From: Symbiodinium sp. CCMP2592
Taxonomy: Eukaryota > Sar > Dinophyceae > Suessiales > Symbiodiniaceae
Direction of reading: 5' to 3'
Assembly (NCBI GenBank): GCA_905221615.1
Contig: CAJNDT010000125.1
Span: forward strand, 186,001 to 250,000
Length of the DNA: 64,000 bases
Below are positions 3,291-51,400 of the stretch, in pieces. A model generated the notes under the pieces. That model did no database searches, had not been told where the DNA came from, and saw only the letters and a program-made list of their open reading frames with translations. Numbering within the stretch: the first letter of the stretch is position 1; each line of letters begins with the position of its first letter. The translations under genes and the position numbers were made by a program.

Positions 3291-4923
3291 AGGTCTATTG
3301 AACTCCGACCTGCCCTGAGCTCCAAAGCCAATGATGGTGATGAATATGATGGTGATGATGATGACGAAGATGGTGGTCATTATCCTCATCCGCACTCTCC
3401 TCCGGTCCCTTGCTCAAAAGTTGGAAATCTAACAACCCATGCCCTGAAGCATCCAGGAACCCCTGACTGCCTTCCTCTGTTTCTTGCCAATCTATACAGG
3501 GAAACTTGTGTGCGCAACGATGCTGCGTGTGCTTCTGTGCTACATACCGTATCTGTGTGGCAGCCCGTACCCCCCCTACCTCTCCCTTCCTGCCTTATTC
3601 ACTATGAATGGGGTCTTCACAAAGAAACCAATACAAAGAAAAACACAGAGAATCCTTGATGATTTATGTGATCTAGAGCGATATTGATAACCTATTGCTC
3701 CCGCAACGCTGCGCGATCTCGTTGTTCCAGCTTCTGGATGCAAGCTGTGAGCCCGCTAGAATCGCGCGCATTCTTATCTACCCCAGCTTCCAGCCGTAGG
3801 TCATGGCATAATCTTCACGAAGCCCAAGCACCGTTTTCCAGTACTTAAAACCCAAATATCACGAGATTCGCAGGGGTTGAGAACCCAAAGCCCAACCACC
3901 ACGATGTTTGCAAAATTGTTGGAACCCCGGAACCATGAACCTCACTTCCCAGCAAAATCCAATACTACGATCATACCGCAGCATACAGCGACTCGAGTTC
4001 ATAACGGCCGGGAACCAACTGCGCGCAACCTCGGTCATAAACTCCCAGCGTGCTATGCGGGCCAGCGTCACCCACAAGATCCGTACCAGAAATGTGAAAT
4101 CCCAGCCTAATTACCACAACCACTGGCGAGATGTCAACTGGAAGTGTCAAGAACGCCCTCTAGGCAGTATGGGGTAGCTTTGATACGGATAGTATCGGAT
4201 AGGCATGTTGCATCCGGACTGGCCATGTTGCGAGCCTTTGTCGCGGCACGACCCCCTTGGCCTCTGATAAGGCCAGTGCTTATGGCCTGCTGCTATATTG
4301 ATGGAAACCGTCCTTCCTCAAATCGCAAATTCACCCTGGAATTCCAAGCAAATAACTGGAAGACCATGCTACCTTTCCTCAAACCTACAAGCTGGCTGAC
4401 ACATTCACCTGAAGATCTGCAGTGCTTGCCTTCGCAGGCTTCTTGCTCGCTGTCTGCTTTCGAGACATAACCTCCCAAAGGAAGTCAATTGCGTATGCGT
4501 GCAGAGCAGCAGCAAGCCAAAGTCTATGGACATGCTAATAAGCTACAGATATGTGCGCTTGTGGCTTTTTCATTCATTCAGTTCGCAGCATCCGGTGCAT
4601 GGACGCTTGGCGACCGCAACTCGGGAAACAGGCATCAGACTTTGATACCCGGCTTGAGGCTGTACTATGTACATTTCCGATAGTTACAGAAAACGTGTGG
4701 ATACCCCGCCGCGTACGGCCAAGCAGATATCCAAAAGCTTAAAAGACTATTGCCTTCGTCACGAGTGACTAAGCAAGGCATTAGCAGTGATCACTCAACA
4801 AACGTAAAGCTGTAGAAAAGTTCGGCGCATGCATACAGGAGAAAGATTGTCGGCACAATGAGAATGTAGACTAAAGTCAACTCGATCACTGTGCTATGAT
4901 CCACTGTCGCTTCCCTGGCAGAT

Positions 4924-5760
4924 TCATGAATCACGGCATAGGCCAAACAGATAGCAGTTGGATATGGCATGCTGCATCTCTGCACTGCTGCATAAACGAA
5001 CTTCTCTGCCATCATCCGTAAGCATTGTCATCCATGTGGTATCGCCATTGGGAAGCTGCCGAAAGCCACTCAGAATGGAGCGGTAGTGACCTGCCCATGG
5101 GTGCATACCAGTATGCACCAGCACTGTGACAAGTCTGTATCGTTGCCATTGCACATGAAGGCCTTGGGCACGTTCAAAAATTGGCAGATCGATAGGCGCT
5201 CCAACCTCAAATGGAAATGGCATGAGATCTTTACGAGCTGGTCGTCTGGGATCTTTCTGAGCCCATCGCTTAAGTTGAAAGAAGAGCATCCTAGGGGCCT
5301 GGCAAAAAGCATAAGGAAAAGGTGGTTGCACATGCCAGTCGACGATGCTTGCCTGCAATCCTCGCGAATTCAGCTCCAGAGTGATTGGCTGCAGGGGATG
5401 ACCTGAATCAGCAACACAAACTGCCGGGCCAAATTGGTATCTGGATTGCCAAAGGCCTGCATAGGCTGATGGTCGAGCATATTCAAGCATAAAGCCCAAA
5501 AACTCCACAGCGTCCTGTTGTCGATCAAAGCGAGTGTGTAAAAAGGTCTGAAACTGTTGCAAGAGTGTGAGCCAGAATGGTATATCTTGCAAACAAGCAT
5601 TGCCAACCTGACGTAGGCGCTCCAGTGGATGTCGAAGTTGCCCATATGTATCAGCCTGTTCAAGTTGTCGCTCATGTACCATGCCATGCCAAAGGAACAT
5701 GTTAATGGTAGCATTTGCATAACAGAGATTGTGAGGATTGCGAAGGCGAAGTCTAAGCAT
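4924..5760 (-). CDS. Ubiquitin-specific protease (C19-type) ORF of the retrotransposon
   Basis: This predicted cysteine protease would remove ubiquitin from proteins. From the ATG at 5760 it has 278 residues, short for a USP but with every family box in order: the Cys box NPHNLCYANATINMF (nucleophile Cys13), the QQDAVEFL box (81-88), FQLKRW (161-166, the usual position of LKRF), the His box HTGMHPWAGHY (His225), an acidic TDDGREV segment (248-254) that could supply the third catalytic residue, and a closing YLFGLCR strand (270-276). The classical zinc-finger Cys pairs of larger USPs are not seen. It starts 32 bases after the stop of the preceding retrotransposon ORF and is in the same orientation. 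The function as a deubiquitinase is inferred from the boxes; whether it is made as a separate protein is unknown. Confidence 0.8.
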   Translation of the reverse strand: MLRLRLRNPHNLCYANATINMFLWHGMVHERQLEQADTYGQLRHPLERLRQVGNACLQDIPFWLTLLQQFQTFLHTRFDRQQDAVEFLGFMLEYARPSAYAGLWQSRYQFGPAVCVADSGHPLQPITLELNSRGLQASIVDWHVQPPFPYAFCQAPRMLFFQLKRWAQKDPRRPARKDLMPFPFEVGAPIDLPIFERAQGLHVQWQRYRLVTVLVHTGMHPWAGHYRSILSGFRQLPNGDTTWMTMLTDDGREVRLCSSAEMQHAISNCYLFGLCRDS

Positions 5761-5792
5761 GGGCCTCGAGCATCCCTGTTGCAAGCTCCACT

Positions 5793-7061
5793 CTAGGAGG
5801 TGGTGTCCTCCTTCTGTTCCGTCTGGTCCCCCTCTTTCGCGATCGGCACGGCTGGGTGCTTCGGTGGCATTTCGCGTGCCGGGCTGGGGCGATTCGATGG
5901 GGGCTTTCTGTAGTTCCGTCCGCGGCCCATTGGATGCTCCGTGGGCGGTGGGAATTGCTCGGCAAGCACCCGGGCTAGCGGCTGACGTTCCATCCTGGCT
6001 GGGCGGACTCGGAATTTCAACAGTTGGCTGCTGGCGTTGAAGCATAGCGAGCACAGAGCGCGGTGGCAGAGTAGGGACTTTGGGTCCCGCATCCCGATCG
6101 TCACCAGGAACGTGACCGGGGACTGGTGCTGCTCCACAAGCCGTCGCGTTGCATGGAAGCGAAGAAGGGCTCCCGGGGCTGTGATGGACGACTCCAAGGT
6201 AGCCAGAGCTGTCATCAGCTCCTTGTGATCCAGAGCCGGGGTTTGCGACTCTTCCAGCATCTGGCGTTCCTGATTCCATCGTAGATATGGTCACTCCATG
6301 CCCTGCCCGGCATCCTTCTGGCGAAGAAGCTTTAGCTTGGCCAGTTGCTCCAAGTCCTCCGGCTGCTCGAGGTTGGTGGTGATTTGCTTCGTCCATTGGC
6401 GAAGCAGGCCCAGGAACAGAACAAGCCTGAGAGAGGAGTCCACCTCCCCTTTCTCCTTCTTCTCCTTCCAGAGGACCGCCATCTTGAACATGAGGCCCAG
6501 CATGTTCACCATGTTGGAGTCTGCCTCGATCGTGGGCGGCTCGAAAGTAAAAAGAAAGTCGCGCTCTGTGCGAGCTTGTGAGAGCTCGTCTTCGTGCCGC
6601 AGGGCCATCCTCGCCAGGAGCCTCACATGCTCCTGGAGAGCTTCCACCATTTGGCGTAACTCCTTCACCTCGCTGTGGTGGTACCATTCGTCGTCCCACT
6701 CCTGTTGCTTCCAGCCCTGTCCTTGCCGGCGCTGCAGCTGCTGGTCCTTCCATCCCCTGGGGTTTTGCCAGGAGCTTGCTGGTGGGCTGGGGTTGTTCTG
6801 CTTGTCGTCTGCCGGTCCCTTGGTAGGTGACTGCCCTTGGCCCTGCCCCTTCCCCGCTGGCTTGGAAAACTTGGTGGGTCGGATCTGTTGATCCTCCGTT
6901 CTCTTCCCCAGAGTTGGGGCTGCAGGCATATCCACATCCTCCCGTGGACGGGGCTGCATTGTCGCCATAGCCTCGCCCAAGATGTCCCGCACTTCCTCCG
7001 CCGCTAGCTGTCCCCTGGTCATGGGGTCCTGTGGTCCAAAGGTCTCCTCCTGGTGGGCCAT
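5793..7061 (-). CDS. Coiled-coil accessory ORF3 of element 1, interrupted by one TGA
   Basis: In a different frame from the long open frame, an ATG at 7061 (context CCATAATGG) opens a convincing protein: an acidic N-terminus, a Gln/Gly/Lys-rich linker, then helices such as EVKELRQMVEALQEHVRLLA and a Leu-rich C-terminal half. A TGA at 6293-6291 stops it after QKDAGQGME. Directly after the TGA the same frame continues for 166 more codons with protein-like sequence (ALATLESSI, VTFLVTIG, then a basic Pro-rich tail) to a TAG at 5793. A TGG-to-TGA nonsense change or stop readthrough would explain this. No known domain is recognised. The frame of the upstream RT ORF reads Gly/Ser/Pro-rich low complexity over the same bases, which supports this frame as the real one. 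Confidence 0.6.
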
Positions 7062-10000
7062 TATGGGTTGATTCAGACCTGAGCTGTCGCAGGGCACGCC
7101 AGTAGTGTAACATAAGGCAGAGCTGATGCAGGATACGACATCTGTGTCGCCCACGGGGTGTCGCTCCACAGGCTTTGCAGGGCCGAGCGTGTCCTTCTGC
7201 GAGGGTCAAACTGTGAGCCATAGCATCGTCCCAGTACAGCATCAAATCTGGATGTATAGCTCGCACATGTAAAATCATGGAACTTGGTGCACGTGCTACC
7301 CATTGACCGCAAAGCACGCAATGATGCCGAAGAGTGTCTTTCATCGCACTGATGTTGAGAACGTCCTTCCACTGGTTAGTGGAAAGCAAGGCTTGCACTT
7401 CAGGTAGCTCAAAAGGAGCCAGGAGCGCGTTTTCTGTTGCACCTTCAGCAGTGAGCCCCGCAGCGAACTGCAAAGCAGGCTCGGGTTGGGGCCCCGCAGC
7501 GGACTGCAAAGCAGGCCTTTCACCCTTTGCGTCAGAATGCAACACAACACAGCTGGTAAGTATATGTACACGAAATTGATGCCAGGTAGAGAGCTTTGTG
7601 TTACAATGTCGACAAATAGGCATATTGTTGGTGCAATGGTCTTGTATGCGAAGTCCATGCAATCTTTTGGCGGGTCCAGCTGAGACTACCTGAAGTCTCC
7701 ATCCATGAGTCTTGGTGTGATGAGAGCGCATCCCTGGCAGCGTGTCAAAGTATTGTCCACAAGTAGGGCAGGCAAAGACTTGGGTAGCCGTGACTTCCTG
7801 AAGACCATGTCTCAAAGCTGCGAGGTGTTGCTTGAGTTCTTCTATTCGCTGTTGAAACTGTGCTACCGCCAGATCTTGGAGTTTGGTTAGGGTGCGAGTT
7901 CGATGTTTCAAGAGCTTCAGCAGGTAGTCTCCGGGTTGCATCAAGCCAAGTCGTTTGTACAGGGCCTCCGTAGGTTCCCGTGTGATATGCACCGGGCTAC
8001 GTGAAATAGCTCGAACGTGTTTGACCTCAAAGGTATGTAGTCTTCTCAGCCCAGCGGCGGTGAGGCCAACCGGCATGAGACCATATAAGGCCGCCGTTCG
8101 GACACACAGTGTGTAAAGCTGGAGGCGCTTACGAACAGAAAGATATCTACGAGCATGTAGAATTTTAATGAGCCGGCCTCTGGTATTACGAGCCACATCC
8201 AGTCTGTAATTCAGGGTGGTGTCCTCGAAACCGCCATAGGAGATACTGACACCAAGATAGGTCAGGCTATCCTTGATAGGTATGATCAATTGTTGATGCG
8301 GGGGGCCAAGCACAAGCCGTCGGGCATCTGGAGGTCCATGTACATGGGGTGCAAGAGTAGATTTGCCTAGCAGGCCTTTGACACCCAGGATGATACCAGA
8401 CTTCTGTGGATTCACCTGCATTCCAAATCGTTGATATACAGAAAAGATAACAGGTATGGCCTGCAGAGCTGAGCGAAGGTCTCCCAATGAATTCACTAGC
8501 CAGCTGGCATGTGTGTCATCAGCGTACAGTGTCAGATGTTGCGATACCCAGGTGTGGGACAATTCTTGACCTAGATGATCAGCTACATAGGCTGAGTACA
8601 CTACCCACAGCAAAGGAGCTAGTGTGCATCCTTGGCGTACTCCACGTCGCATGTTGATGTGACTGTGACGTCCACGATGATTAATGCTGTACTTGCAAAC
8701 TTCATGCAGGTCTATAATTGTCCGTGCCAATGTTTCGCTGGCGCCTGCCCAAATCAATGCCTGATATAGCCGTTCACGAGGTACTCGATCAAAAGCGGTT
8801 GAAAGATCGATTGCAAGTTGTATACCGCCAATGGCCACTTTCTGTTTGATTTGGGCCCGACGTGTATGCACAGTGGCCTGCTGCCCTTCATGCATAGAGC
8901 GGACTTGTCTGCAGTGGGCCGTCACTCGCGAAATAGCAGTGTCTGTGCTTTTACCAGGTACATATGCAAACAGAGGCAAAGCGGCTATGGTGGAGCTGAC
9001 TTCTTGTAAAAGTAATTGCTTCAGTACCTTAGCATAGGCCTTTGCGCCAGTATCTTGTAGTCCTAGAGGTCGGAGGTTTTCGGGTCGTTTCCCCGATTTG
9101 TGTGGCTTGGGGATGAGTGCCAGAGTACAGTCGGCCCACAAAGACGGCGTCTCAGCCCCATTCAGACAGGTCTCGGCCTGAGGAGCAGCAATCGTGGAGA
9201 TCATGTCCGAGCATGCACGTACCGCACTGGTAGGAGCGCTGCCCGGAGGTACTGCCTTGCCCATCTTGAGCGAGTCGAGGGCTTGCTGAAACATAAGCGG
9301 GCTGACCTCGTAGTGTGCTGAAGGTCGAGCTGCAGACAGTGTGCATCCAGTCTGTCGAGACAGAAACAGAGTCTCAAAATGTTCAACAATGGCCTGCTGC
9401 TCCTGTTGATAGGTGAGCATTTCGCCCTGTTTACCATGTATACGGACCTGGGCATGTCGGGTTTTGGGTGCCATTTGCCGAATAATGCGATGCAATAGGC
9501 CATGATCACCCCGCGCAACTGCAGTCTGGGCCTGTTCCAGGTAGTTCTCGAGGACGGCTTTGCGAGCTTCTCGGCCCCTTTTGCGAAGGGCCTTATAGGC
9601 TTTCTGAAATTCCTGGTGTCGTCGCCATGCTTGAAAGCATGCTCGAAAGGAGCCTGGTGGGTGGCCAGCCGATCTTTGCATTCGCCTCCGTGCTCTCCAC
9701 ATGTCCGCTACCGATGTTTGCACCTCCAACGTCTGCCAAGCCCGGAGCTGTGGTTGAGGAGGAGCTCGCGGAAAAAGCCTGCAAACCAGATCGAGTAGAA
9801 TATCGTTAATTTGTTGAAGGTCAGAGGTTTGTACCGCCGCAAGTTTGGACCTGAAAGCTTCTCGTAGGGCTTCATATTGCGGAGTGCGATCTCGGACGGC
9901 AGCCGTGAGAGCCAAGTTATCATAAGATCTTTTGGGCTGAGTGGACGGCCGTGGTGAGGCCCGTTGCCAGCCTGGATGTAGAGGGAGAGTGGCCTCAACC

Positions 10001-11328
10001 GGATGATGCTTGCCCCCTTGACGCCACGGACTGAGTGTGAAGCCTCGTTTGGGTAGAGCACGTCGAGCCACTGCATCTGCATGTCCCTGTCGGGTGATGA
10101 TAAAGTCAATGATGGACTGATGCCTAGGACCTGTAAAGGTAGGAAGCAGGCGACGTCGAGACCATGTGTTGAGTACAACCAGCTGGTTAGCTTCCAGGAT
10201 GGTGGTAAATTCTGCAGCATCCGAGTAGAGCTCAGCCCTGGACAATGAGCATCCGATGTGTCCCGCGACATAAATCGGGGTGCAGTTGAAGTCGCCCAGC
10301 AGAACCAGCATGTTTCGCCTGGCCAGTTGTTGTATAGTGGCATTTAGGCTGTCCCACAGACTGTGTCGTTTGGAGAGATTGTGTCCCGCTGAGTCTGGCT
10401 GATAAGCTTGTTGATAAAAGTTCACCACATCTATGTGATATTCGGGTCGTGCGAGGCGTACATGTAGCAAACGGCCTGGTTTGATCTCCTTGTGGTGAAT
10501 CTCCGCAGCACCCTGGAAGTCCTGTCGAACCAGCGTGGCTAGGCCCTGAAATCTAGAGGAAGGATCGACACTGGTTATGAAGGTCCAACCTGCCGAGGAC
10601 CAGTGTGAGGACTCTTTCCCCAGACCATGGTGGATTTCCTGCAGAGCTATGATATCATACGGTGCATTAGGAAGCCAGGCCATAAGGCAATCAAACGTTG
10701 TGGCGTCAAGACCACCAACATTCAGACTGAAAGTGCGAAGCCTGGAGCGCTGCCGCGTTGTAGGCGAGGACGTGGTCTTTGCAGAGGGCCTGGTGGGCTT
10801 TGGGTGTGGATCACTATGTTGGGGCGCACGAAGAGTTCGGCCTCGATAGACGGTTGTTCCATCCTGTGAGGAACGTGCTCGACGAAGCGCTCGGGCAAAA
10901 GCTCGTTTTCGAATTCGTTGCCTGCCTGAGCATGGCGCCGGAAAAGTAGTCGTGCAAGCGGTGCTCCCACCTAAAAGTTCACCCCGAAGGGCTCCAGAAA
11001 CCGGGCGGGAATCAGAATCAACCCTCGCATCTGTGCCGGCACATGCTGCTGGTATCCATGCTATCAACAGCAAAAGTAGAAGTGGTGTGCGTAAACATCG
11101 AATGCTTCCGGCACCCTGGGACTTGGGACCCAGGCGGCACTGCTTTGTAGGAGACGTGGGCGTAGTAGGAGAAGCTGCAGGTACTCTAAGAGTGCCACCG
11201 TACCGAATGTCCGAAAGGAGGTGGTAGAAGACCTGGCAAATGTAGTAGATGCACTGCATGTACCGGTAGAGGGCAGATATACAAATCAGCAGCGGCACCT
11301 GTTTTTCCCAGTTCCACCACGCATCCAT
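7062..11328 (-). CDS. Retrotransposon ORF2: endonuclease, reverse transcriptase, zinc fingers
   Basis: The enzyme nicks target DNA and copies the element RNA into the genome. ATG at 11328 lies 35 bases after the ORF1 stop. The N-terminus has two hydrophobic stretches (VPLLICISALY region and TPLLLLLLIAWIPAAC), which is odd for a nuclear enzyme. Then comes the APE-type endonuclease with FSLNVGGL, ALQEIHHG, LLGDFNCTP and SIIDFIITRQG; the usual SDH is replaced by KHHPV. The RT shows LAIDLSTAFDRVP (motif A), RRGVRQGCTLAPLL (motif B) and LTLYADDTHAS (motif C). The C-terminus carries C2H2/CCHC-type fingers (CPTCGQYF...HHTKTH, CRHC...HILTSC, CVLCGQW...HVRAIH, CKACG...HRC). No stop closes the frame near 7062; beyond it the believable protein switches to the ORF3 frame, so a frameshift, internal initiation or decay is possible. 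Confidence 0.9.
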
Positions 11329-11362
11329 GAGAAGCGAAGGCTTTGCACAGGAGGAGGTACAT

Positions 11363-12589
11363 TCAGTCTTTAGTGGCTGGTTCAAACCCGAGGCCATCAG
11401 CACTAGCAGGGGTGAGAGGGCTGAAACCATCTGAACTGCTATCTTCAGGGACTGTGGCTTTGGCTGCAGCAAGGTCGTCCTCCGGTCTAGAGGATGTGTC
11501 GAAGGGGTTCTCGTCGATCTCGTCGTCCTCCGCCGGGCATTCAGACTCCGAGTTTTCATGATCCTCGCGGGGAGCTGGTAGAGTGTTGGCGGCAGCATGC
11601 GTCCGTGTAGAGGCTGTCGTGGGTTTGGCTGGGCCCCTTTCCGCACGAAGCCGCCGGGCTTCTTCAGCCAGCTCTCGAATGGTGATCTCGTCGGAATCCA
11701 TAGAGTCCGTTCCGCTTGGGGGTGAGTCATCTGCAAGGGTTGCAGCATCATCAGCAGCATAGTGGACAGGCACCGGAGGAGGCGGACCACTAGGCGGTGC
11801 ATCAGGCGGAGAAGGTTCCGGCTGCAAATACCGTGGTCTATGCAGGAGCCGAGTCCTCGGACTTCTCGAACGAGGTGGCTCAGATTCACCTTCGTCCGGC
11901 CTTTTGGGCCCCGGCATTGGTAGCAGAGAAAGGTAATTATCTGCCAGAGTGGGGCTGCAGTCAAACAAGCTGTGCGAACAAGCGGCTGCAAGAAAAGTTG
12001 GATTCGGCTGCAGAGCAAAGCTTCAGACAGAAAAGTGCATAGCAGACCGGCAAGTCTCGCCAGGAGGGCCGGATCTGTACCAGGTGGTACTCGCAGGCTT
12101 CGAAGCATCAATCGTCGGGCCCCTTCTAAGGCTCGCAAGATATACTCCAACCTCAGAGGAGCACCTGAATTAATCCATGTTAGCAAGATCATCAATCTTT
12201 CCAATCTGTGCTGCGTACGCGCATTCAACCATGCAGTGGGCAAACTCTTCATTGAGAAAGTAGGTATTGGAAATAAGCCGAACACGTTGATTAGGTTGTA
12301 ACAGTGTCCAGCAATCCATCCAGATACTGAAAGGAGCTTCCCAAAGCCAGCTGCTTCCATACAGGTTTTGCAATGATTGCTTGGCTGAGGGCGGGAGCTC
12401 TCGCCACTTCTCACACAGCAGTTCCATAGCAAGGTCAGAAATACATTTATGCAGCAGATCTTGGTGCCTCCACCAGGCCGTTCTCGAAATCTTGTTGTGC
12501 CCTCGCGGCGGGCACAAATCCATAGCAGTAGCTGCAGCCATGGGGGCATGTGCCCAAGTCCCTGAACGAAAAGCAAAGCCGAACCCCAA
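11363..12589 (-). pseudogene. Retrotransposon ORF1 region (gag-like), frame-broken
   Basis: Two stretches in one frame look like protein. 12589-12170 carries a Trp-rich segment (WRELPPSAKQSLQNLYGSSW). 11968-11363 is an acidic Pro/Ser/Glu-rich region with DEITIRELAEEARRLRAERG. Between them (about 12170-11970) the best protein is in another frame (LRLEYILRALEGARRLMLRS), so at least two frameshifts separate the parts. Neither stretch starts with a supportable ATG. Position before the EN-RT ORF and composition suggest an ORF1 RNA-binding protein; no zinc knuckle or RRM was recognised. An alternative is that parts are noncoding 5' sequence. Confidence 0.5.
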
Positions 12590-12799
12590 ACACCAACCAC
12601 ACCGTCCGAGAAGCCAGCAATCTTACACCGGCCCTTGTCGCCGTCAGCTATCCTTTGGATGAGCCGAGATGCTTTGCGCTTGTGGCTGTTGGCATGGTCG
12701 TCAACCAGCTCCAACTGACCTCTGCGCTCCATGTGGTCAAAAAGTCTCAAACGTGGCAACTAATCCAATTACTAACAGACAGACCCTCAGACTGCACGT

Positions 12800-15057: not shown

Positions 15058-17633
15058 TCAGACCCCGTTGCAGTGGACGCCTTCAGTTGCCTCAACAGCC
15101 TTCAAAAGCTTCTCGAAGGACAGGCGCCCATTCCTTGGAGTTATGCAGTCGTAGCACGTGACGAAGTTGTAGCGGCAGCCAAACATCTTGGTGAGTGAAC
15201 AGCTCTCGGAGGGCCCGCCTCACAATTCACAACTTAGACAAGCCTGGAAAGGTCTCCGAGTAACGATAGCCAACCGGCGCAAAAGACAGCACAGCTGGAG
15301 CTCTGCAATTCCGACCATCGTTTCATTTCGGAGTCATAGTTGCGGGAAGTGGCCCTTCAGCCTACTACAAGACCCATGTAAAGGTGGCTGAGTTGGAAGA
15401 AAGGAAAACAGTAAGACCTGAGGTCTTTAACAATGATTTAGGACTTCAAGTAATGTAGGAACCTGATTAAAAAAAACCCGGGGCCTGTATTAGGGCTCCT
15501 TGTATGAATCCTGCTATCTTGGGGGTTATGAGCCCAGGGTTTCTTAATCAGGTTCCTACTGGTGATGATAAATAAATCCTGCACTACCTTAAGGACCCTA
15601 AACTATGGGAATTATGGCATATTCCTTCTCATGGGTAATGCAGGATTTGTATCATCAACCGTACAGTAGCTTCTTCAGGAGAGTCTGTTCCAGCCTATCG
15701 GCATGATCTCCACGACTCGCTGGTGCAGCGCTTCGTTCAGCCAGCGCGCCGCATTCCACAAGCCGCCGCCGTGCGCTGCAATGATGGTGCTCGCCGCGCG
15801 TATCAGGAACACTTGGTCGAGGTAGGGAATGGTTCCCGTGTTCACGTATAGAATGGTAGCGTCTGTGTAACGCTTCGACAGTTCGGTTGCGAGCTCCAGG
15901 CCGTTTGCAACGCCACGATTCTTCCCACAGCTGTCGCCAAGCGAAGGAATCTTGTGGCAGTCCGGGGGTATGCGCGATATCCACAGGTAGAAGTTGCTTT
16001 GCCTTGCATCGATCTTGCAAACCTTCCCATTAAGGAGGTGCAAGGAGTGTTCTGCCGACAGTTTCCGCATGAAGTTACAGGCATCGCCATAGCGTTTCGG
16101 GTCGCGCCCCCATTCAGATTCGAAAAAAGGCAACGCTGCCTTGGTTCTGCTACGAACACGACCCGCTGGCAGTTTCACTAAGTTGCCCTCACTCTCGTCT
16201 AGTTGCTGTTAGCGTGGCCACTACCACTACAACCACCACGGCCATGAGAATGACTGCTGCTGTTTCCCATACAAAGCACAACTAAAGGGTATATCAAAAG
16301 CCGTAGCTGCAGCTAAGCAGCCATTTGGTGAGCTAGAAGTAAAGGTGACCGCCCTTCACAGAGACCCGGCTGGTTGAACCTTGTCCAGTGAGGCCCCGTC
16401 ATTCCAGCAGGCCCAGATACCAGGTACCTCACGAGCTGCACATACGGCTCCGCTTTCACTTTTAAGGAAGGAAAATCTGCAGAGTAGGAGGCAGTAACGA
16501 TCTCGGCGGACAGTGCCTGCCAGTCTTCGTAGAAATGGGGCAGACTTGCTTTCTGAGCCGAATATCTCGATCTGCCAAAGCCGTTGTAAAGAACCACTCT
16601 GGTCTCCTCTCTGCGGAAGGTCTTCGGCAAGATGTGCTGCACAATGAACAAGTTGTCCTGATCGGCCTGGCAATGGCCTGGGTTACCCGTGTTGCAGTCG
16701 CCTGTCGACATAAAGGTCAAACCTTCACGGGCTGCGGATTTATTTTGGACATTCCACTGCAGAGACGCTGAAATGTGGTCAAGTAAAGACACATTGCCAG
16801 GCAGGCTCTCAAGGATTGTAATTGGTTGGGTGAGCTGCTTCGCTCCAAGCTGACGTCGAACGTCCAGGTTTTGAAGAGGGTGTCGGGGAGACAATTGACT
16901 GAACAGCATTCTGCGGTTCACTTCTCTGCGCAAGTTGCACTGCGCAACCCAACTCAAGGTGCCAGTTGGAGATAGTAACTCCACAACATCCCGGAACTGG
17001 CAGACATAGACTTGTTGCTTGGTGAGGTGGCGAGCACAGGTGATGGTCGAAACTCCAGCGCCACAGATTTCGAGGCCATGTCCGCGAAGCTTCTGCTTCC
17101 ACTTGCTCATTCCCAGGTGTTCTTCCTCGCACTGTCGGAAAGGCGGCAGGGTCTGCGGGGTGAAGCGATATCGATCTGAAGCTGCCAGGGGCCGCCACTG
17201 CACGCCCAGCTGCGCCTGTCCTTCTCCGACGCTCGGCGCGCTCTCCCGAGAGCCCTGGACAGCTTGCGTTGTCGGCGCTGCGCGTGTCGTGGAGCCACGG
17301 ACCGCCGGCCCAGCGGAGGGGCGGAGACTGGTCGAAAGGGCGCTGGACGTGCTGGAGGTGAAGCTTCGCCCATCCGAATCCGCCAGCTGTGCGCCTTGGG
17401 TTGTGGAGCTCGGGGAACCAGGCCGGCCCTCCGTGGTGGACGGAAAGTCGCGGCTGGCTGATGTCGCTGGGTCCTTGCTTGTTGTGGAGATGGCTTCGGG
17501 AGATGCTTGTGAAGCAGGAAGCCCCGGAGGCGCGTGGGCCCCGTTGAAGTGCAGTCCCAGCCGGAGCTTCTGTCGAATGGACTGGCTGAACGCCGAGGTG
17601 AAGAGGTAGGCAGATATAAAAGCCTCGCTTTCT
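15058..17633 (-). CDS. GT61-like glycosyltransferase, gene copy 1 (three visible exons)
   Basis: Predicted to transfer sugars in the secretory pathway. Visible exons: 17633-16421, 16139-15695 and 15218-15058 (about 600 residues; the first exon with the start codon is not identified). Exon 1 begins with a possible membrane anchor (ISAYLFTSAFSQS), a Ser/Thr-rich stem, and the catalytic N-half with GDCNTGNPGHCQADQDNLFI and TRVVLYNGFGRSRYSA. Exon 2 holds ATILYVNTGTIPYLDQVFL and the signature STIIAAHGGGLWNAARWL, like the HGAGLTN region of GT61 (DUF563) proteins. Exon 3 (CSLTKMFGCRYNFVTC) ends at TGA 15060-15058. Phases agree: a phase-0 intron 16420-16140 (GT..AG) and a phase-1 intron 15694-15219 that begins with GC and contains a MITE. 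The neighbour at 18.8-21.1 kb is a tandem duplicate. The family call rests on the C-terminal half. Confidence 0.65.
15455..15559. mobile_element. 105-bp MITE, copy A, inside a GT61 intron
   Basis: The ends are perfect 15-bp inverted repeats: GTAGGAACCTGATTA at 15455-15469 and its reverse complement at 15545-15559. The interior is noncoding. An element of the same length and ends lies at 32430-32534. No convincing target-site duplication is visible. It lies in the GC-AG intron of GT61 copy 1. Confidence 0.8.
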
Positions 17634-18827: not shown

Positions 18828-21114
18828 TCAAAACCCCTGGCATGTGCTGACGTCCACAGTCTCCAGCGCCTTAACGAATTCCTCAAACTTCAGCTCTCCA
18901 TTCTGCTTGTTTTTGCAAGCGTGGCACTTGACCCAGCTGTATCGACCGCCGAAAAGCTTTGCGAGAGAACAGGTCTCGCCTGGAGAACCTGGCAAAGCAG
19001 AACCCTGAAGGGTTTGATTAGGGGCCTTTTGGGGTCAAGAGTTTTGGCTGCTTGGACAACAAGTTCGACAACTTCGACCTATCGGCACGATCTCCACGAC
19101 TCGCTGGTGCAGCGCTTCGTTCAGCCAGCGCGCCGCATTCCACAAGCCGCCGCCGTGCGCTGCAATGATGGTGCTCGCCGCCCGTATCAGGAACACTTGG
19201 TCGAGGTAGGGAATGATTCCCGCGTTGACGTAAAGAATGGTAGTTGCAGTATAACGCGTCGACAATTCGGTTGCAAGCTCCAGGCCGTTCGAGACGCCAC
19301 GATTTTGGCGCTTCCTGCATTTGCTGGTCAAATGGGCCGGCCCGTGGCAGTCCTGATCGACCCGTGAAATCCACAGGTAGAAGTTGCTGTGCCTTGCGTC
19401 GATCTTGCAAACCTCTCCGTTCAGGAGGTGCAAGGAGTATTCAGCAGAGAGCTTCTGCAAGAACTTGCAGGCATCACCATATCGATCCGGGTTGCTCGCC
19501 CATTTCGACTCGAAGAAGGGCAACGCAGCCTTAACTGCTTCCAGGGACTCGACACACGAACGGCGCAAGCTGCGCCCTACAGAGCAGTGTCGGTTCAATT
19601 TCAACAGTTGGAAAAACCATGGTACTCGTCATAAGAGTCGTCATAACAAACCTACAGACACGAAAGAAAGGAGACCCTGCAGCACCCCGCACACCAAGCG
19701 TAAACTCGCCACCAGGCCGCCATCTGATGCGCAAGGAGCAAAGGAGACCGGCCGATGCAAGAGCTACCTTTCAAGCTGGTCCAGTGAGGCCCCGTCATTC
19801 CTAGGTCATGGTTGGGATAGGATTAAAAACTTGAACTTCTATTCCTTATTGGGTTTAAGTACCTGTTGAAATGTACAATGCTACCCAACTATGACAAGAT
19901 TCCAGCAGGCCCAGATACCAGGTACCTCACGAGCTGCACATACGGCTTCGCTTTCACTTTCAAGGAAGGAAACTCTGCAGAGTAGGAGGCGGTAACGATC
20001 TCGGCGGACAGTGCCTGCCAGTCTTCGTAGAAATGGGGCAGATGTTCCATCGCAGCCGAATATCTTGACCTGCCAAAGCCGTTGTAAAGAACCACTCTGG
20101 TCTCCTCTCTGCTGAAGGTCTTCGGCAAGATGTGCTGCACGATGAACAAGTTGTCCTGATCGGCCTGGCAATGGCCCGGGTTGCCCGTGTTGCAGTCGCC
20201 GGAAGATAGGAAGGTCACCCCTTCGCGAGCAGGCTCTTTCTTCTCTTGGGCAGTTAACTTCAAAGATGCCAGGACATGGTCAGAAAAGTCGACATTAGCA
20301 GGGATGCTCTGCACGACTGTGATGGTTTTGCTGAGCTGCTTCGACCCAAGGTCTTTTCGAACATCGAGGAAATGCAGGAAATGGCTGCGATGCAAAGGCT
20401 GGAACAGGGAATAGAGATCCACATCTTTATGCAAAGCGCATTGGGCAATCCAGCGTAAGGTGCCATCTCCAGCAAGCACTTCCAAGACGTTGCTGAACTG
20501 GCACACATAGATCCTGGGTGATGCCAGTTCACGCGCACATATAATGCTTGAGACACCTCCGCTGCAGATTTTCAGGCCACGTTGGTCCAGCTTCTGCTTC
20601 CAGCGATTCATTCCTCGCTCTTCCTGTTCACATTTTCGGAAAGGCGGCAGGGTCTGCGGGGTGAAGCGATATCGATCTGAAGCTGCTAGGGGCCGCCACT
20701 GCGGGCCCAGCTGCGCCTGTCCTTCTCCGACGCTCGGCGCGCTCTCCGGAGAGCCCTGGACAGCTTGCGTTGTCGGCGCTGCGCGTGTTGTGGAGCCACG
20801 GACCGCCGGCCCAGCCGACGGGCGGAGACTGGTCGAGAGGGTGCTGGAGGCACCTGATGCTGCCAGCTGCAGACTGGTCCTTGCACCGAGGCTCAGCAGA
20901 CTCTCTGAGTGGACCTGCAGTGGTGTTGTGGCATCCTGCCGCGAAACAGACGTGCCACCGGTGCTGTTGGATGATATCCACGCGGCCTCTGTCACAGCGG
21001 GGAGCAGCCCTGGAGTTTCTCTCGGCGCTGTAAAGCTAAGTCCCAGCCGAATCTTCTGTCGAATGGATTGCCTCGATGTCGTGGCGAGGAAGTAAGCAAA
21101 GAGCGAAACCTCAT
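18828..21114 (-). CDS. GT61-like glycosyltransferase, gene copy 2 (tandem duplicate)
   Basis: Same three-exon plan as copy 1, offset by about 3.5 kb: 21114-19919, 19529-19079 and 18979-18828 (TGA at 18830). The N-terminus reads VSLFAYFLATTSRQSIRQKI, a possible signal anchor, then a Ser/Thr-rich stem. The catalytic parts are nearly identical to copy 1 (GDCNTGNPGHCQADQDNLFI; STIIAAHGGGLWNAARWL), while the start of the stem and the exon 2/3 junction differ. Intron 1 (19918-19530, phase 0, GT..AG) is about 108 bases longer than in copy 1 because of a MITE insertion. Intron 2 (19078-18980, phase 1) is 99 bases and GT..AG, where copy 1 has GC..AG. The first coding exon is not identified. Confidence 0.65.
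19801..19898. mobile_element. 98-bp MITE-like insertion in GT61 copy 2 intron 1
   Basis: Compared with copy 1, the intron sequence GGCCCCGTCATTC|CAGCAGGCCC is split by this segment in copy 2. The insert is flanked by ATTC on both sides (19797-19800 and 19899-19902), and its ends are inverted repeats (GTCATGGTTGGG against GTCATAGTTGGG, 11 of 12). The paralogue therefore serves as the empty site. It has no coding capacity. Confidence 0.8.
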
Positions 21115-33260: not shown

Positions 33261-34145
33261 TCAAGGCAGCTGCATCTGGCATATCATATTGATGTTCATA
33301 CAGTGACCTTGAGATGCAACCCTGCTTCCCTGGCCCATGGGGTTGAACCCAAGAGAGCAGCCGCCCTGGCATGCAGAATAGAAGTGACATCCCTGAGGCC
33401 AGTCAGGGTAGCTCACCTCAGAGATGACATCTGCCCAGCCACCTCCCCAGTGGCATCCCTCTCCCGGACGGACTGCCTCAGCAGCCTCCACACAGTCGGC
33501 TGCAGTTGCACCCACAGGCTCGAAAGGAAACGTGCACGCCTTGTCCTCGTCGGGGAGCGCGTAGGCTCGAGACCCGGAAGGGCCCAAGGCGATTCTGACC
33601 CAGTCCTGGAGCTTGTCAGAAGATTGCTGGCAAGACCACAGTTGGATCTTTGCCCCATTGAATCCCTGGTTGCTGTCGATAACAAGGCACATCTGTGTGG
33701 GGGCGTTCCGCGCCTCGATCTGTCCGACATCATTGAAGTACCAGGTCTGGTGCTTGTTGCTGTCGCTGCATCTCCAAAGCTGAATCGTCGCTCCGTTCTC
33801 ATACTTGTCGCCGTCGATCACGACGCAGTAGTCTGAATTCTGATGCATCCTGATCCGTCCGGCGTCATCAAGGAAAAAGTTCTGGCCTCCGCTTCGCCAC
33901 TTTTGATCGCAACGCCAGAGCTGAACCTTGACACCGTTGCCGATGCGGTTTCCATCGCTGGAGAGGCAAAACGACAAGTCTGGCATCCATGCAAGGTGCA
34001 TCGAAGAAGAGTCTTTCGTCGCAGCACGTTTGGTCAGAAGCGTTGCATTAGTATCGCCGGCGAGACTCACGCTTCCCCTGAGCTGTGCCTCCTCAGCAAC
34101 TGCTGAGGCAAGTATGGCAAAACAGGCGAATGCCCATAAAGGCAT
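33261..34145 (-). CDS. Secreted QxW (ricin-B type) beta-trefoil lectin
   Basis: A 294-residue secreted carbohydrate-binding protein, predicted to bind glycans outside the cell or in the secretory pathway. ATG at 34145 opens a signal peptide (MPLWAFACFAILASAVAEEA). A single beta-trefoil follows with three repeats: LSFCLSSDGNRIGNGVKVQLW, YCVVIDGDKYENGATIQLW and MCLVIDSNQGFNGAKIQLW-type units, each with a C..D..G...QLW pattern and a closing QxW in the middle one (HQTW). The last third is Cys-rich (GEGCHWGGGW, GCHFYSACQGGC) and unrecognised. No toxin A-chain or other catalytic domain is present. The frame is intronless, and the open frame upstream of the ATG lies in a dispersed repeat, so the ATG is preferred. 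A GGGCTCAAG about 50 bases upstream recalls the 3' end of the spliced leader. Confidence 0.75.
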   Translation of the reverse strand: MPLWAFACFAILASAVAEEAQLRGSVSLAGDTNATLLTKRAATKDSSSMHLAWMPDLSFCLSSDGNRIGNGVKVQLWRCDQKWRSGGQNFFLDDAGRIRMHQNSDYCVVIDGDKYENGATIQLWRCSDSNKHQTWYFNDVGQIEARNAPTQMCLVIDSNQGFNGAKIQLWSCQQSSDKLQDWVRIALGPSGSRAYALPDEDKACTFPFEPVGATAADCVEAAEAVRPGEGCHWGGGWADVISEVSYPDWPQGCHFYSACQGGCSLGFNPMGQGSRVASQGHCMNINMICQMQLP

Positions 34146-34211
34146 TGTTCGGAAGCGCCGGGAATTGGCTGGGAGCGATGGTAGATCCCAGCACTTGAGC
34201 CCAGCAGGTTG

Positions 34212-34320
34212 CCCAAACCATAGTGCCCATATGGGGGATTCCATTCTGAAAGTAGGGGACCCTAACATAATACCCCAAATAGTCGGATCCTTATTATAAG
34301 GACCCCAAAATAAGGTACCT
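34212..34320 (-). repeat. Dispersed repeat, copy 2 (inverted relative to 226-316)
   Basis: In reverse complement it starts AGGTACCTTATTTTGGGGTC and keeps the TATAAGGATCC and GGGTCCCCTA blocks of the 226-316 copy. It lies just upstream of the lectin gene; a TTTCGGAAGCTCCCATAT motif follows at 34327-34344. Confidence 0.6.
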
Positions 34321-34599
34321 CCCAACTTTCGGAAGCTCCCATATTAACTATCGACAGCTAAGAGGCTGCATCTGAGCTGAACCTGGTGGCCTAAGACTGA
34401 CACCCCAAGCCTCCCCGGCAGCGAGCCTCACAACGGGGCTGGCGTTTGCACAAATTCTGATGCATATCTACACGTAAGTGTGCATGCACATGAAAAAAAC
34501 ATGTACACATGTAGTGTGATGAAATGTGAGGTTATGTCGTGCAAATAATTGGTTAGAGGGTATGCACAAGCAAATTACTGGTTCTGGTTAACAAATATT

Positions 34600-45400: not shown

Positions 45401-48400
45401 GGCCCGTTGAAGGGCGTCCGCGCCAGCACTGCGGGTGGCATAGCCTTCAGCATGAACCAGCGCTTGCAGTTGTTGCACGGCCCGGACCAAATCGTCCAAA
45501 CGTTGCTGGACCCCCGCACGTCGCATGCAGGGGAAAAGGGCCCACCCCCAGTAGTGGCCAAGGAAGAAGAGACCAGCCAACAAGGCTCCCATCAGACCCG
45601 TGAGGAGCATGCACCATACTCCGGTGAGATCCGGCCCATCCTCGCCTCCCTCGGGAAAGCGGTGTTGAGCCTGGTACAAGGCAACAGACATGGCGCCTCA
45701 GCACGGGAGTCTAGCTGTAGCCTTCAGTTTACTGGGCGCGTCAGCCAAAGGAGCTGCGCAAGCATGCGGCGTTAGAGCTGGCAGGAGGGGGATGCTTGAA
45801 GCAGCATGCGTCCTAGTATCTTTATGTGGCAGAAGCGGCTACCCAGAAGTACCCCAAAAGGCCCTCGTCACAAGCATCACGTCCAAGAACCCAAAGAAAA
45901 CCCTGAAAACCCTGCCCAAAGTACGCGCCTCGTCGATCATGTAATCGAGCCCAGCGGCCCCCAAGCAGCCAAGGCTCAGGCTAGAGACAGGAACAGGAAG
46001 CAGTGCTAGGACGGGCAGTGGATACCAAGTGTTGGGCAGAAAATGCTGGTCCCGAGGGTCAAAGGTATCACCTACATCGTCTTCCAAACATCGCATCATC
46101 CCCTATGCGCTGGCAAGCTCGCGGCGGCACATGCTTTTACTCGGCTGCACACGCACAACTGCAAATTCCAACATGCTACATGGCTACAAATTCGGAAATC
46201 AGTAAATTCAAGGAATTCTCCAGCAGGCGCGAAGAGTGCGTGTGAAGGCTACACCAAAAGAACGAAGACCCGAGCTAACAAGAACCAAAAGCAAACACAA
46301 CAAAGCACTCTCGTCCATTGCCTATGCTGAATTCGAATGTATCACAGCAGCTGCAGTTCAGTACCAGTAGGAACGGCAAGTCGGACGATGGGCAGCGCTG
46401 AAGACGAGGCACTCCCGTCCACATTCATCCCTTCGAGCGATTGTTGTATCTCGCGCAGAGCATCCAAGACATCGTGCAGCTGCCCTCGCACGTGGCCAAC
46501 ATGCTGTATTCCCGCGAGACCAGACACCCGAGAATGGAGTTCCTGAACAAGGGCATGAGTATTGTCCACTGCCCCCAGTCTGGATCGTAGTTGCAGGCCA
46601 TGGTACAGAGAGTCCAGGGCTTCACCATGTCTTCGTCGGAGTTCAGCAACGTCGCCCCGAGTCTGGTTCAGGAGGTCATGCATCTGTCTTTGCTCTCCAA
46701 GGAGCTGCAGCAAAACAGCTTCGTGGGCACGCATTGAATTCATACTCAGTCGGAACATGCAGTACACCGAGTACATCGCTGCCAAGCATAGCCCAAAGGC
46801 CACGGCGCAGGCCAGCTGGAAAATCATGGATGGTGACCAAACCTCTACAGCGGTCAGTATCAGAGCCTAGAGCTGCACAGAACTAGCGGATTACCCACTA
46901 CATGCAGAGGCAAAAACCCGTGAGGGAAATAAAAAGGAGCAGCCAGAGCACCCAAACTCCGAAACACCGAAATAAGAACAAAAAGAGCACAAAGATTACT
47001 CCGGATCGGAAATAACACAATCCCAGTAGTCGGGCTCTGGACTGGCTGCTCCCATGCACATGCTGATGACATCCGACTCCGTATCAGACGGTATCGGTAT
47101 CGTTGCTGGACAGGAATCCTCCAGGTCGATCGTCACAGGAGGGTGGTGTAACAAGGTGCCCCGCGGCCACACCAGTCTAGGCTCAAGCCTCAGTTGCCTC
47201 GTAACCGTGGCCCCCCAAATCTCGTGTCGAAAGCGATCCTCTTCGTGAGCAGTAGGAGGCCGAAAACCAAAAGAGCAGAGCCGGCAGTACAAATCGTCCG
47301 AGAGGTTGCACGTACTGGCAGCCGTGCTATAGGCCGACAACACAACCCGGTCTCCTGTCCAGGCACACGTAGCATGAGTAATTGGAAGGGAGTGGTGACG
47401 TCAATCTTGATCCCCCTCCGGAAGACACCACCACACAACATCCTTGTATCCCCCAAGTCATGAGCCAGCCACAGCTCGCCACCGCTGTAGCCCTGTGTCA
47501 GAGCCAGAAGGACCCCTGGGACCTCAGAGTTGTGGCAGTCCGTATGGGGCGGTGTCATGACATTGTCCAGCACTGTTATCGTGGTAAAAGCTGTATCCGG
47601 CGACCAGTGGCGGACAAGCCTCGTCATGAGTCTGGTGGTCAGCGGATACCTCCTACCAGAGGACCGCATCCCAGATCTGGCTCGTTGGAAGCTTCCAAAG
47701 GTCAGCACGTAGCCACCTTGTTTGCGAGTCCACTCCGCCTTGGGGATCAGCCGCAGGACGTCAAGGGCCTGAGTCTTGGTGACAAAATCCCCTGCTTCCA
47801 GCAACTGCAGAGCGCGGATCTCCGCGTCAAGGCGGGGGCGCTTGGGTGCCATTTCCGTCCCGTCCTGCCCCCCCCTGTGGGTGAGCGAGCACGGAAGTGA
47901 GGACCGGAAAGGATCCCACAGGCTACGCTTGTGCCAGAGGCTACATTGAGGTTGGGCTACAGCAACTGGGGTCGCAGCAACACCAGCAGCGCTGACCGCA
48001 ACTCCGAAAAGTACTGAGCCCTGTGGAAGTCGGCCGTGCGAAACAGAAAATCCCATCCCTCCGGAAGCACTGAAGGCTCAAATCCTAGTTGTACCGCCCA
48101 CCTGTTCGGTAGTCGCTTGGGTGTCAACGCCGTTCGTGACAGCAAATCCACCTCCTCTGAAACCCTATTGAACTTTGCAGAATCAGCATCTCTCGCATCC
48201 GCTGTACCTTCAAGGACGTGTTTCTGGAGGAGGTGAGGGGGAAGGACAACGCCCGCCTGTTGCAGAGGGCTGGTAACATCATGCAGCCGAAGGAGCTCGC
48301 AAAGAGCGAGCAGCACTGGCACGACTACCACCCCTCCGTCTCCAGTCGATTGAAGGCGTATGTGCAAAACCGTGGTATCATGTACTTTCACCTTGGCACG

Positions 48401-51400
48401 AAAACAGTAGACACATGCGACGAGACTGCCCGGCACATGCGTCACCCAGAAGGTGACCGCTGTTCTGTTATCAGCACGCCATGGTTTGAGATGGATTAGC
48501 CCGGAACGATACAGACCCTCCAGTGCATCACGTCGTCTGCGTAGAGCAGAGATTCCCTTATCTACCACGACAAGCTGGCGACCAGCTACATACTCCGTCG
48601 TCAGGGGATGGACAGGCGACGCATGCCAATAGTGCAGCCATCGCGGCAGCATAGCCAGCCAGGCCGTGCGGTCTGTTGCCTGCCATTCCCAATGAGGCAT
48701 CTCTCCTTGCATTTGCAATTGCTGATAAACCAAGCGAAACTTGTGAAAAGGCGTCTCCGAAAGCCAGGACGGCCGAAGCTGTCCCGTGGAGAGTCGGTGA
48801 CTCCCCATGGTCCTGAGCATGCGGCGTAAGGGCGTGTCCTCCGTGGACCGGGCAAGGTGACCGAAATAGGTCCAAATACGTGTCAACCAGGCCACCTGCC
48901 ACTGCGGTCCTCGAAAGCACTGGCAGTACACACTGAGTGCTCTACGACATCCTTGCACGTTTTCCAACCAAGTGCTGAAAGGATCTCTTCCGAAGCGAAA
49001 AACCCCCAGAAGCAAGGAATTCTTAAGCCCTTCTATGCTCTTCAGCGCGCGCACCGTAGGCCAAACGACCGAACTGCACCATTGCCATTTCGAGCTGATG
49101 TACGAGTCAAAGAGAACACTCTTAACCCTGTGCGGAGTCGAGGGCTTGTCCAAGATCTTCTTCATTGCAAAGAAAGAATTTGTCATCTTTCTGAGCGGGT
49201 GCATGAGGACCATGTCGGGGGCATTAGTGTGTGCAAGAGGTACCCCAAGGAACATCAAGCGGTCCTTGCCCTGCAGAGGGGTGCAAGAGCCCCGGAGCCA
49301 GACCCCCGGCGTCGATCCTTCAATATTAAGCACGCTGCACTTGGCAGGGTTGACAAAGAGCCCTACCGCCGCCAACGTGTCCGTCAGGTCCCTGAGTTTG
49401 ACCTGAAGTTCCCTAGCATCCATCGCAAAAAGCATGACATCATCAGCATATAGCAGGAAATGTGGGAGCTCTATTGCATCCGCCCAGCGGGGAAACTCGG
49501 TATTCCACCGAGCCTGGAGCCCCCGCAAATGGAAATCTATAGCTCGAGCGAAGAGATCAGCTGAATAGCTGCTGCCTTGCATGATCCCTTGGCGGACCTC
49601 GGTACGCCAAGTCTCAGTTCCCAAACTCATTAGCAAACGATTTTGGGAGCACAGACGCCATAGCAGGAGGATCTCGGGACAAACCTCACAGTGCATGAAG
49701 AAGTGCACGATCGAAGAATGGGAAAGACTGTCGAAAGCCGCCCTAATATCTAGCTTGGCCACATGTGCTTCCACCTGGTGCTTTCTGCGTAAGACTCCTA
49801 TTACTGTCTGCGCCGCGAGGATGCCGTCTACCGTCTGAGTTTTTCGTCTGCACCCCATTTGCCCACTTTGGTAGGGCGGGCATTTAGGCGCAACTCTCCC
49901 CATCAGTAGCCTGCCAAAGATCTTAGACAAGCACGGAGAGAGACAGATCGGGCGCAGGTCAGCAGGATTGGAGGGTTGGGGCGTTTTGGGCAGGAGCACT
50001 ACCTTGGCCTCGTACCAGTTCTCGGGAAGAGGCTGTTGCCCAAAGAGCAAACGATTCATGAAGCGGAGAAGCTTGCCCGTTTTGTCGCATCTATGATAGG
50101 TCCGGATTGCCTCATAGCACACTCCGTCCAGGCCAGCGCTTGTGCGTGGCTTGCATTTGGCGATGGCCAGGCCTAAGTCATCCTTAGTAAAGGGCTGCGG
50201 TCTAACGGAGGAATGTGTAGCAATCATCCGATGGATCGCCTCCTCGGTGGGAGGCGGGAGGAGGGAAGCGTATTTGCGGTCATAGAACTGCCGGAGTTCC
50301 AAGCTGGCCGCTTGTTGCCCCCCTCTTTGCTCAATGTAGCTGGTTTCAAACGAAGCATGCGCGGCACTCTTTCGGAGGTACGTGATAGCCTGCCTATCCC
50401 CTTCCCTGGCTCGCTGCAGAATGTTCAACTGGTGTTCGTGCCGATCGTTGGTTCGGCGTGCCCGTATTTCGGACAACATGCTCGCTCTCGTGTGAGGGTC
50501 CTGGCAGGCACGTCTGGTTGCAATAAGGGCCTTAAGGTCCGAAGAGTCCTGGTATCGAAGGGAAGGAACTCGCTCGGCTTTTAAACACAACTCAGACATG
50601 CGAGAGGGACCAAACTCCATGTCCGAGGCCGCATAGCTCTCCAGCTCCGGAATGCTGGGCAGCCACCGGCCACACCTGGTGGTGGGGCGTGTGCCTCTGT
50701 GGAGCAGCGGCATCGGGGTGCAAATTCTCAGAAAGACGGGGCAGTGGTCCGAGGGGAGCGCCAGTCGCATGTCATCCCGCTTGTGAGCATACGTGAGACT
50801 TCTAGGGACACGAGCCAGGACAGCGTCGATTTCGCTAGCAGCCCCACGGGCCGTCCAAGTGATGCCCACGGAACGATGCAACGAGAGGCTATGTTTCTGA
50901 AGCAGAGCCCTCAGAAGCCCCATTCCCGAAAAGGTGTCCGAGCTGGCATGAAGGTCCTGGTTGAAATCACCGCCGACGATGACCATGGCCTCGCCACCTG
51001 TATCCTGCAGTTGAGAATCCAGTAGCTCCAAGGTGTCCTTCCAAACCTCCTCTGCAGAAGATCGTGGTTTAGCTTCGGTGCTGACCCGTTTACTGTGGGG
51101 CAAATGCAAACATGCCAAATGAATTCGGTGATTCCGACATGCACCATGCAGGACAAGACCAACGGGAAGCCCCGACTTGTGTGTCGCATGGAATTCCAGT
51201 TCGGTTTTGACAAGAATAGCCTGGTTGAGGTGTGCTTCGGGCGCGCTGCAGTGATACATCTTGTAGGGTACAGACCCAAAACAAAAATCCGAGACCTGAA
51301 CCTCAGGAGTGGCCCCAGGACAAGCACCTAATTCCTGCACAAAAAGAAAGTCAGGGCATGGGACAGTCCCCTGCCACAGATCAGCAACCTCACGGAGACT

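Follow-up and report, generated by a model that had tools for sequence, protein, structure and literature searches.

Does a protease gene that adjoins a retrotransposon belong to that element, and what might it do there, or is it a fragment of a host gene that came to lie beside it? The question is raised by a 64,000-nucleotide stretch of Symbiodinium sp. CCMP2592, an alga of the group that includes coral symbionts (contig CAJNDT010000125.1, positions 186,001 to 250,000 of the forward strand; hereafter the window), in which an open reading frame (ORF) for a ubiquitin-specific protease (USP) is found together with a long interspersed nuclear element (LINE), a non-LTR (non-long terminal repeat) retrotransposon. 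A preliminary description had placed a complete USP ORF of 278 residues, carrying Cys13 and His225, at 4924..5760; counted from the ATG at 5760, this length and these residues were borne out. Its coordinates hold for the minus strand (the plus-strand frame has several stops), but the USP is not the separate ORF following the retrotransposon ORFs that it was taken for: its frame is the frame of the reverse transcriptase (RT) itself, open from 12759 to 4927.

The USP domain and its linkage to the reverse transcriptase

The minus-strand frame from 12759 to 4927 is free of stop codons and contains, in order, Pfam matches to Exo_endo_phos, RVT_1 and UCH. The APE-type endonuclease (EN) domain (10072..10728, minus strand; PF03372, E = 3.2e-11, residues 678-896 of the open frame) is followed by the RT domain (8245..9111, minus; PF00078, E = 6.6e-17, residues 1217-1505) with a YADD motif at 8526, and the best PDB match of the RT region is human LINE-1 ORF2p (E = 2.7e-10). 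The element thus has an APE-like endonuclease and a LINE-type RT in a single frame, as expected of a LINE. Four zinc-finger-like (ZF) motifs, each starting with CxxC, lie 3' of the RT (7081..7770, minus); the C2H2 matches between RT and USP are weak and below the Pfam cut-off. From the zinc fingers a stop-free linker in the RT frame (5770..7080, minus) leads to the USP domain (Peptidase C19, Pfam UCH), which together with the stop codon forms the C-terminal end of the polyprotein (4924..5769, minus; E = 5.2e-8, 33.2 bits against a curated cut-off of 23.9).

The catalytic residues of this domain were compared in an alignment of 11 rows, the window included. The catalytic Cys (codon 5722..5724, minus), the oxyanion Asn five residues N-terminal of it (5739-5737, minus), the catalytic His of the GHY box (5086..5088, minus) and both residues of an Asp pair (DD; 5011..5016, minus) are each present in 10 of the 10 covering rows, and Cys, His, Asp and the oxyanion Asn stand in the expected order in the window and in all covering rows. 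One Asp of the pair is likely the acidic member of the triad. Two further proteins were left outside the alignment: the Cys box is not covered by P0005 and is replaced by unrelated sequence in P0006, and both retain the His and the Asp residues. A search of NCBIfam gave no match for the USP. Structure prediction, which had been proposed as a check on the domain, yielded a model that matches solved USPs, consistent with a USP fold.

The link between USP and RT was examined among long proteins searched with the USP region. Among 361 candidates there were 4 matches (P0009-P0012), and all 4 carry an RVT_1 domain as well as a UCH match above the cut-off; the endonuclease is above its cut-off in 3 of the 4 and below it in P0011. 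The preliminary description had held that a single-copy USP never linked to an RT would mark a host gene fragment; the RT domain in 4 of the 4 long USP proteins listed is the opposite finding, and its assignment of a USP-type domain to a LINE is upheld. The identities to the window, given here for P0009, P0010 and P0012 in turn, are 71%, 52% and 40% for EN; 65%, 53% and 43% for RT; 67%, 56% and 33% for ZF; 35%, 32% and 28% for the linker; and 61%, 45% and 37% for USP. These per-domain identities indicate that the USP is an old and stable part of the LINE lineage. The most similar proteins carry Symbiodinium names, which, together with the exact spliced-leader sequence at 53038-53020 (minus), points to a dinoflagellate as the source of the window. 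Three scans were run on sets that may lack records from the window's genome itself or from one very close to it: viral contigs scanned with the USP gave no relative, viral contigs scanned with a five-protein alignment gave 16 stretches that fit a pattern and none that is a relative, and the scan of genome contigs gave one 25% RT match in a Microbacteriaceae bin.

Proteases of this general kind have been found in mobile elements before. Dualen/RandI LINEs carry an OTU-type cysteine protease and two endonucleases; they resemble the present element as LINEs with a deubiquitinase-like protease and differ in its OTU type and in the number of endonucleases. NeSL and Utopia non-LTR retrotransposons encode a Ulp1-like cysteine protease and are alike in that the protein of a non-LTR element includes a protease for a ubiquitin-like modifier (PMC4640811). 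There, however, the Ulp1 domain is N-terminal and accompanied by a C-terminal restriction-like endonuclease, whereas here a USP is C-terminal and an APE-type endonuclease N-terminal; no Ulp1 family matched the open frame at E<=1 in Pfam, which gave UCH and Exo_endo_phos instead. OTU or Ulp1 domains are also carried by Ginger1, Helitron and Mutator DNA transposons, and one Trichomonas vaginalis protein combines Transposase_11 with Peptidase C19 (PMC2836005). These are likewise deubiquitinase-like domains in mobile elements, of the same C19 family in the Trichomonas case, but they belong to DNA transposons lacking a reverse transcriptase, while the present domain is fused to an RT. The earlier statement that OTU- and Ulp1-type proteases are known in other transposons is supported (PMC4640811; PMC2836005). 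The preliminary description knew of no USP-type protease in a LINE, and we found no report of one; for mobile elements at large the C19 family is not entirely new, given the Trichomonas protein. A parallel in the same hosts is SymbioLINE-Dnmt, a kind of dinoflagellate LINE whose ORF1 contains a DNA methyltransferase (PMC5890265): in both cases a Symbiodinium LINE acquired a regulatory enzyme from its host that selection has since maintained, but the methyltransferase occupies a separate upstream ORF, whereas the USP is fused to the RT. Neither the candidate ORF1 nor the long frame gave a methyltransferase match at E<=1 (Pfam), and no word beginning with ubiquitin, protease or peptidase occurs in the main text of PMC5890265. 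An account of accessory domains of retrotransposons, in the excerpt available, deals mainly with helicases and names no USP (PMC6338049). In the literature as covered by the listed titles, the starts of abstracts and passages of the papers cited here, with subscription journals and Repbase Reports outside that scope, no description was found of a LINE with a USP or of a nested ORF such as the one described below. Ubiquitin-pathway proteases recur in unrelated mobile elements; in the present case the protease is covalently tied to an RT, and its catalytic residues have been kept over deep divergence.

The nested reading frame and the linker

A second ORF of 422 codons lies wholly within the RT-USP frame, in the +1 frame (5793..7061, minus). 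It has its own ATG at 7061 and its own TAG stop at 5795-5793, 24 bases ahead of the USP region, and encodes a coiled-coil protein with a conserved alpha/beta domain. In a search that scored only the 7995 candidates sharing most words, the nested protein had 20 new relatives in addition to P0003 at E<=0.001 (21 rows); Symbiodinium necroappetens, CCMP2456 and KB8 are represented in this set. At the start column of the window's protein 7 of the 20 relatives have MA[H/N/D], these being their own first residues in three; most others start later or are partial. The same C-terminal alignment column is shared by 5 of the 20, and the rest end before or beyond it; many of the relatives are partial gene models. 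The predicted structure comprises a helix at the N terminus, a disordered region, a long coiled coil and an alpha/beta domain; comparison of this model with known proteins gave no clear match, and NCBIfam, searched with the initial part of the nested ORF (6291-7169), gave none.

Next to the conserved nested protein stands the openness of the RT frame over the same DNA. Across the nested ORF the RT-USP frame has 0 stops, whereas synonymous shuffling of the nested ORF gave a mean of 9.2 and never 0 in 20000 trials, which makes an open linker by chance improbable; sequences drawn with the codon usage of EN-RT had a mean of 22.5 stops and a minimum of 10 (5000 draws). The exact probability of an open linker within synonymous boxes is 10^-5.1, and within-box and block-local permutations predicted 7.0 to 9.3 stops, with P of 10^-4.3 to 10^-5.7 for local shuffling. 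The third frame over the nested ORF has 11 stops against 12.2 expected (P = 0.37), and the open linker was also tested with a base-context control. Third-position T is absent from all 107 sites at which it would create a stop; elsewhere it is found at 14 of 117 sites that precede A or G (Fisher P = 1e-4 between these two classes) and at 25 of 197 that precede C or T. The avoidance of stops in the linker is specific to stop-making sites.

The same arrangement was traced in the relatives by codon-level dynamic programming. The RT-frame linkers of P0009, P0010 and P0012 encode the nested protein in the same +1 frame, with scores of 989-1999 against 798-834 for the best of 25 shuffled targets and 553-622 for the other frame. 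The +1 arrangement is thus indicated in 3 of the 3 long relatives with a readable linker frame; P0011 switches frames and served as a target only. The conserved nested relatives and the avoidance of stops place both frames under selection over the same DNA. RT, linker and USP are probably translated as one protein, as selection against stops suggests, and the nested ORF, conserved as a sequence and presumably translated, is probably a second gene encoded in this stretch. Overlapping (overprinted) genes, in which one DNA stretch encodes two proteins in two frames, are described from viruses (PMC8227390), whereas here one ORF is wholly nested inside the RT-USP frame of a cellular retrotransposon. 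We regard the nested gene as a strong candidate for a non-viral overlapping gene of considerable length. The USP-bearing LINE lineage with its nested overlapping gene is in our view real and belongs with the already known retroelements that carry an accessory protease; the function proposed for it is set out below.

Possible roles of the USP

The element is probably a dinoflagellate non-LTR retrotransposon with an APE-type endonuclease whose RT polyprotein ends in a USP, with a nested protein in the +1 frame and the USP acting in cis for the element's ribonucleoprotein (RNP). From the anatomy and the linkage, which are observed directly, we infer a deubiquitinating activity, its substrate and its benefit to the element. 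The RT-USP frame would be read as a single protein, and the +1 frame of the 1.27-kb interval that separates zinc fingers from USP would yield the second, nested protein from its own start to its own stop. The USP would stay covalently joined to the endonuclease and the RT and travel with the RNP as an active deubiquitinase. Because of this covalent tie, its likeliest job would be the removal of ubiquitin in cis, either from the element's RNP or, at the nicked target, from proteins of the host, and the RNP may thereby escape ubiquitin-driven turnover during target-primed reverse transcription.

Several observations weigh against this reading. The evidence appears to fit RNP protection and action at the target site alike. 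The nested ORF of the window copy is interrupted by a premature TGA (6291..6293, minus), where 18 of 20 relatives have a residue and the other 2 are uncovered. When the linker was held fixed and the codons were shuffled, the nested frame showed no significant openness (1 stop against 2.2 expected, P = 0.28; third frame, P = 0.02), so the case for the nested ORF rests on its conserved relatives. The unused frames of four EN-RT control stretches, which held 7 to 23 stops and none near 0, also gave somewhat lower counts than shuffling did in 7 of the 8 tests (ratios of about 0.58 to 0.86; P of 0.02 to 0.24, and 0.60 in the eighth test), so part of the stop deficit in the linker may be general. 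The DNA-level results rest on one copy, that of the window, and since the search for long relatives returns open frames only, the openness of their linkers is partly ascertained; nothing in the finding suggests that the window itself was selected for an open frame. P0010 and P0011 share 89-95% identity in three matched pieces and 67-72% in two gap-broken pieces, so the four long relatives amount to about three lineages, and P0011, a model from Symbiodinium sp. KB8, is spliced and uninformative on the linker. The distant P0007 and P0008 depart from the other rows at some accessory positions of the USP. The best USP model has a mean pLDDT (predicted local distance difference test) score of 72.5, the other four ranging from 71.5 to 47.0, and the Foldseek template modelling (TM) scores are middling, at 0.51 in the top row.

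A bolder version, which we put forward tentatively, makes deubiquitination a core step of retrotransposition: the RT frame may have been read through an older structural gene and so gained the USP, the nested coiled-coil protein would be an ORF1p-like partner that may bind element RNA, and both would be needed for mobility. Rather unlikely, in our judgment, is that the USP acts on host chromatin or repair proteins at the insertion site instead of on the element's RNP. It does share a protein with an endonuclease and zinc fingers; by sequence, the PDB USPs that it matches best are USP46 and USP12, and its fold matches include USP1-FANCD2 complexes. However, the fold is common to all USPs, and a fold match therefore names no substrate; a histone-ubiquitin role is further weakened by the packaging of dinoflagellate chromatin mainly by non-histone proteins (PMC11071213).

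It is improbable that the protein is made by a chain of frameshifts, in which ribosomes would slip +1 from the RT to the nested frame and then -1 to regain the USP, with the RT-frame linker untranslated and open by accident. Such a chain would account for database gene models that fuse the nested frame to the USP or linker frame (P0003, P0011, P0026, P0027, P0029, P0031), for the continuation of the nested frame 5' of the ATG in 4 models (P0018, P0028-P0030) and for the mild stop deficit in 7 of the 8 control tests. Against it, a fully open linker by accident is improbable. The nested ORF also begins at an ATG of its own, where 7 of 20 relatives show MA[H/N/D] in the alignment, and in the window it ends at a separate stop. 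The fusing models probably reflect introns guessed during annotation; automated gene prediction may link the frames of such elements through introns that perhaps do not exist.

We regard it as very unlikely that the USP is a maturation protease that cuts the element's polyprotein. The end of a large polyprotein is where proteases of other retroelements are also found, but USPs cut after ubiquitin, and the Pfam matches of the open frame at E<=1 include no ubiquitin-like domain, which makes polyprotein processing unlikely. Finally, a host USP fragment beside the LINE by chance, for which only short annotated USP-only gene models such as P0001 could be cited, is refuted by the linkage in several lineages: the USP is in the RT's frame and the same element, inside the candidate target-site duplications, and an RT accompanies the USP in each of the 4 long relatives listed, even where USP identity is as low as 37%.

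Element boundaries and other features of the window

The probable full-length non-LTR retrotransposon with its TGAATGAATGAAAA tail occupies 4567..12674 (minus) and is flanked by a 13-bp repeat. The 5' copy, AGCCACAAGCGCA on the minus strand, is at 12675..12687, and the 3' copy at 4554..4566 abuts the A-rich tail; the 8.1 kb between them would be the full-length element. A 13-mer common to the 5' region was found in 9 of 500 random 800-bp pieces in a length-only control, so the repeat, not being rare by length alone, is a candidate target-site duplication only, and its weight rests on its position beside the tail. A second copy of the element was not found in the 64-kb window by tblastn at 1e-3. 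A spliced-leader relic at its 5' end is not claimed: the best match covered 12 of 21 positions and was equalled or exceeded in 358 of 3000 random pieces.

Near the 5' end lies a candidate ORF1 (11363..11917, minus), acidic, of low complexity and 184 aa long from its ATG, in a frame other than that of RT-USP. The RT frame across it has 0 stops against 0.96 expected (P = 0.26); since this openness is expected by chance, we do not claim that the RT protein extends upstream over ORF1. By eye in the alignment, a hydrophobic segment lies 5' of the endonuclease (11035..11082, minus), and another hydrophobic stretch occupies the equivalent place in P0009, P0010 and P0012, ahead of a TDARV/ADARV/TDVRV motif. 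It resembles a signal or membrane anchor, which is unusual in a LINE protein.

A second LINE occupies 47190-53040 (minus), with an ORF1-like frame at 51479-52894 and an EN-RT ORF at 47957-51340 (RVT_1, E = 3.9e-21); it gave no USP match and no BLASTP match to the first LINE (1e-3). Its 5' end has an exact copy of what we take to be the dinoflagellate spliced leader (53038-53020, minus), with another, incomplete copy in tandem; CCCTAAA repeats that are presumably telomere-like come before them. Repeated retroposition of a trans-spliced LINE mRNA might leave such a pattern. An ORF with an H-x-D motif at 47190-48056 (minus) follows and slightly overlaps the RT of this LINE. It matches the Tet_JBP 2OG-Fe(II) dioxygenase family below the cut-off (E = 0.0065, 16.1 bits against 34.9), had no PDB match at E<=1 and is possibly another element-borne enzyme. 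Two similar ORFs at 19889-20995 and 16313-17203 (both minus) have ...GDCNTGNPGHCQADQDNLFIVQHILPKTF... in common, perhaps by local duplication; the former had no Pfam match at E<=0.05. At 33261-34325 (minus) there is an ORF for a ricin-type beta-trefoil lectin (E = 7.7e-18), probably a host gene.
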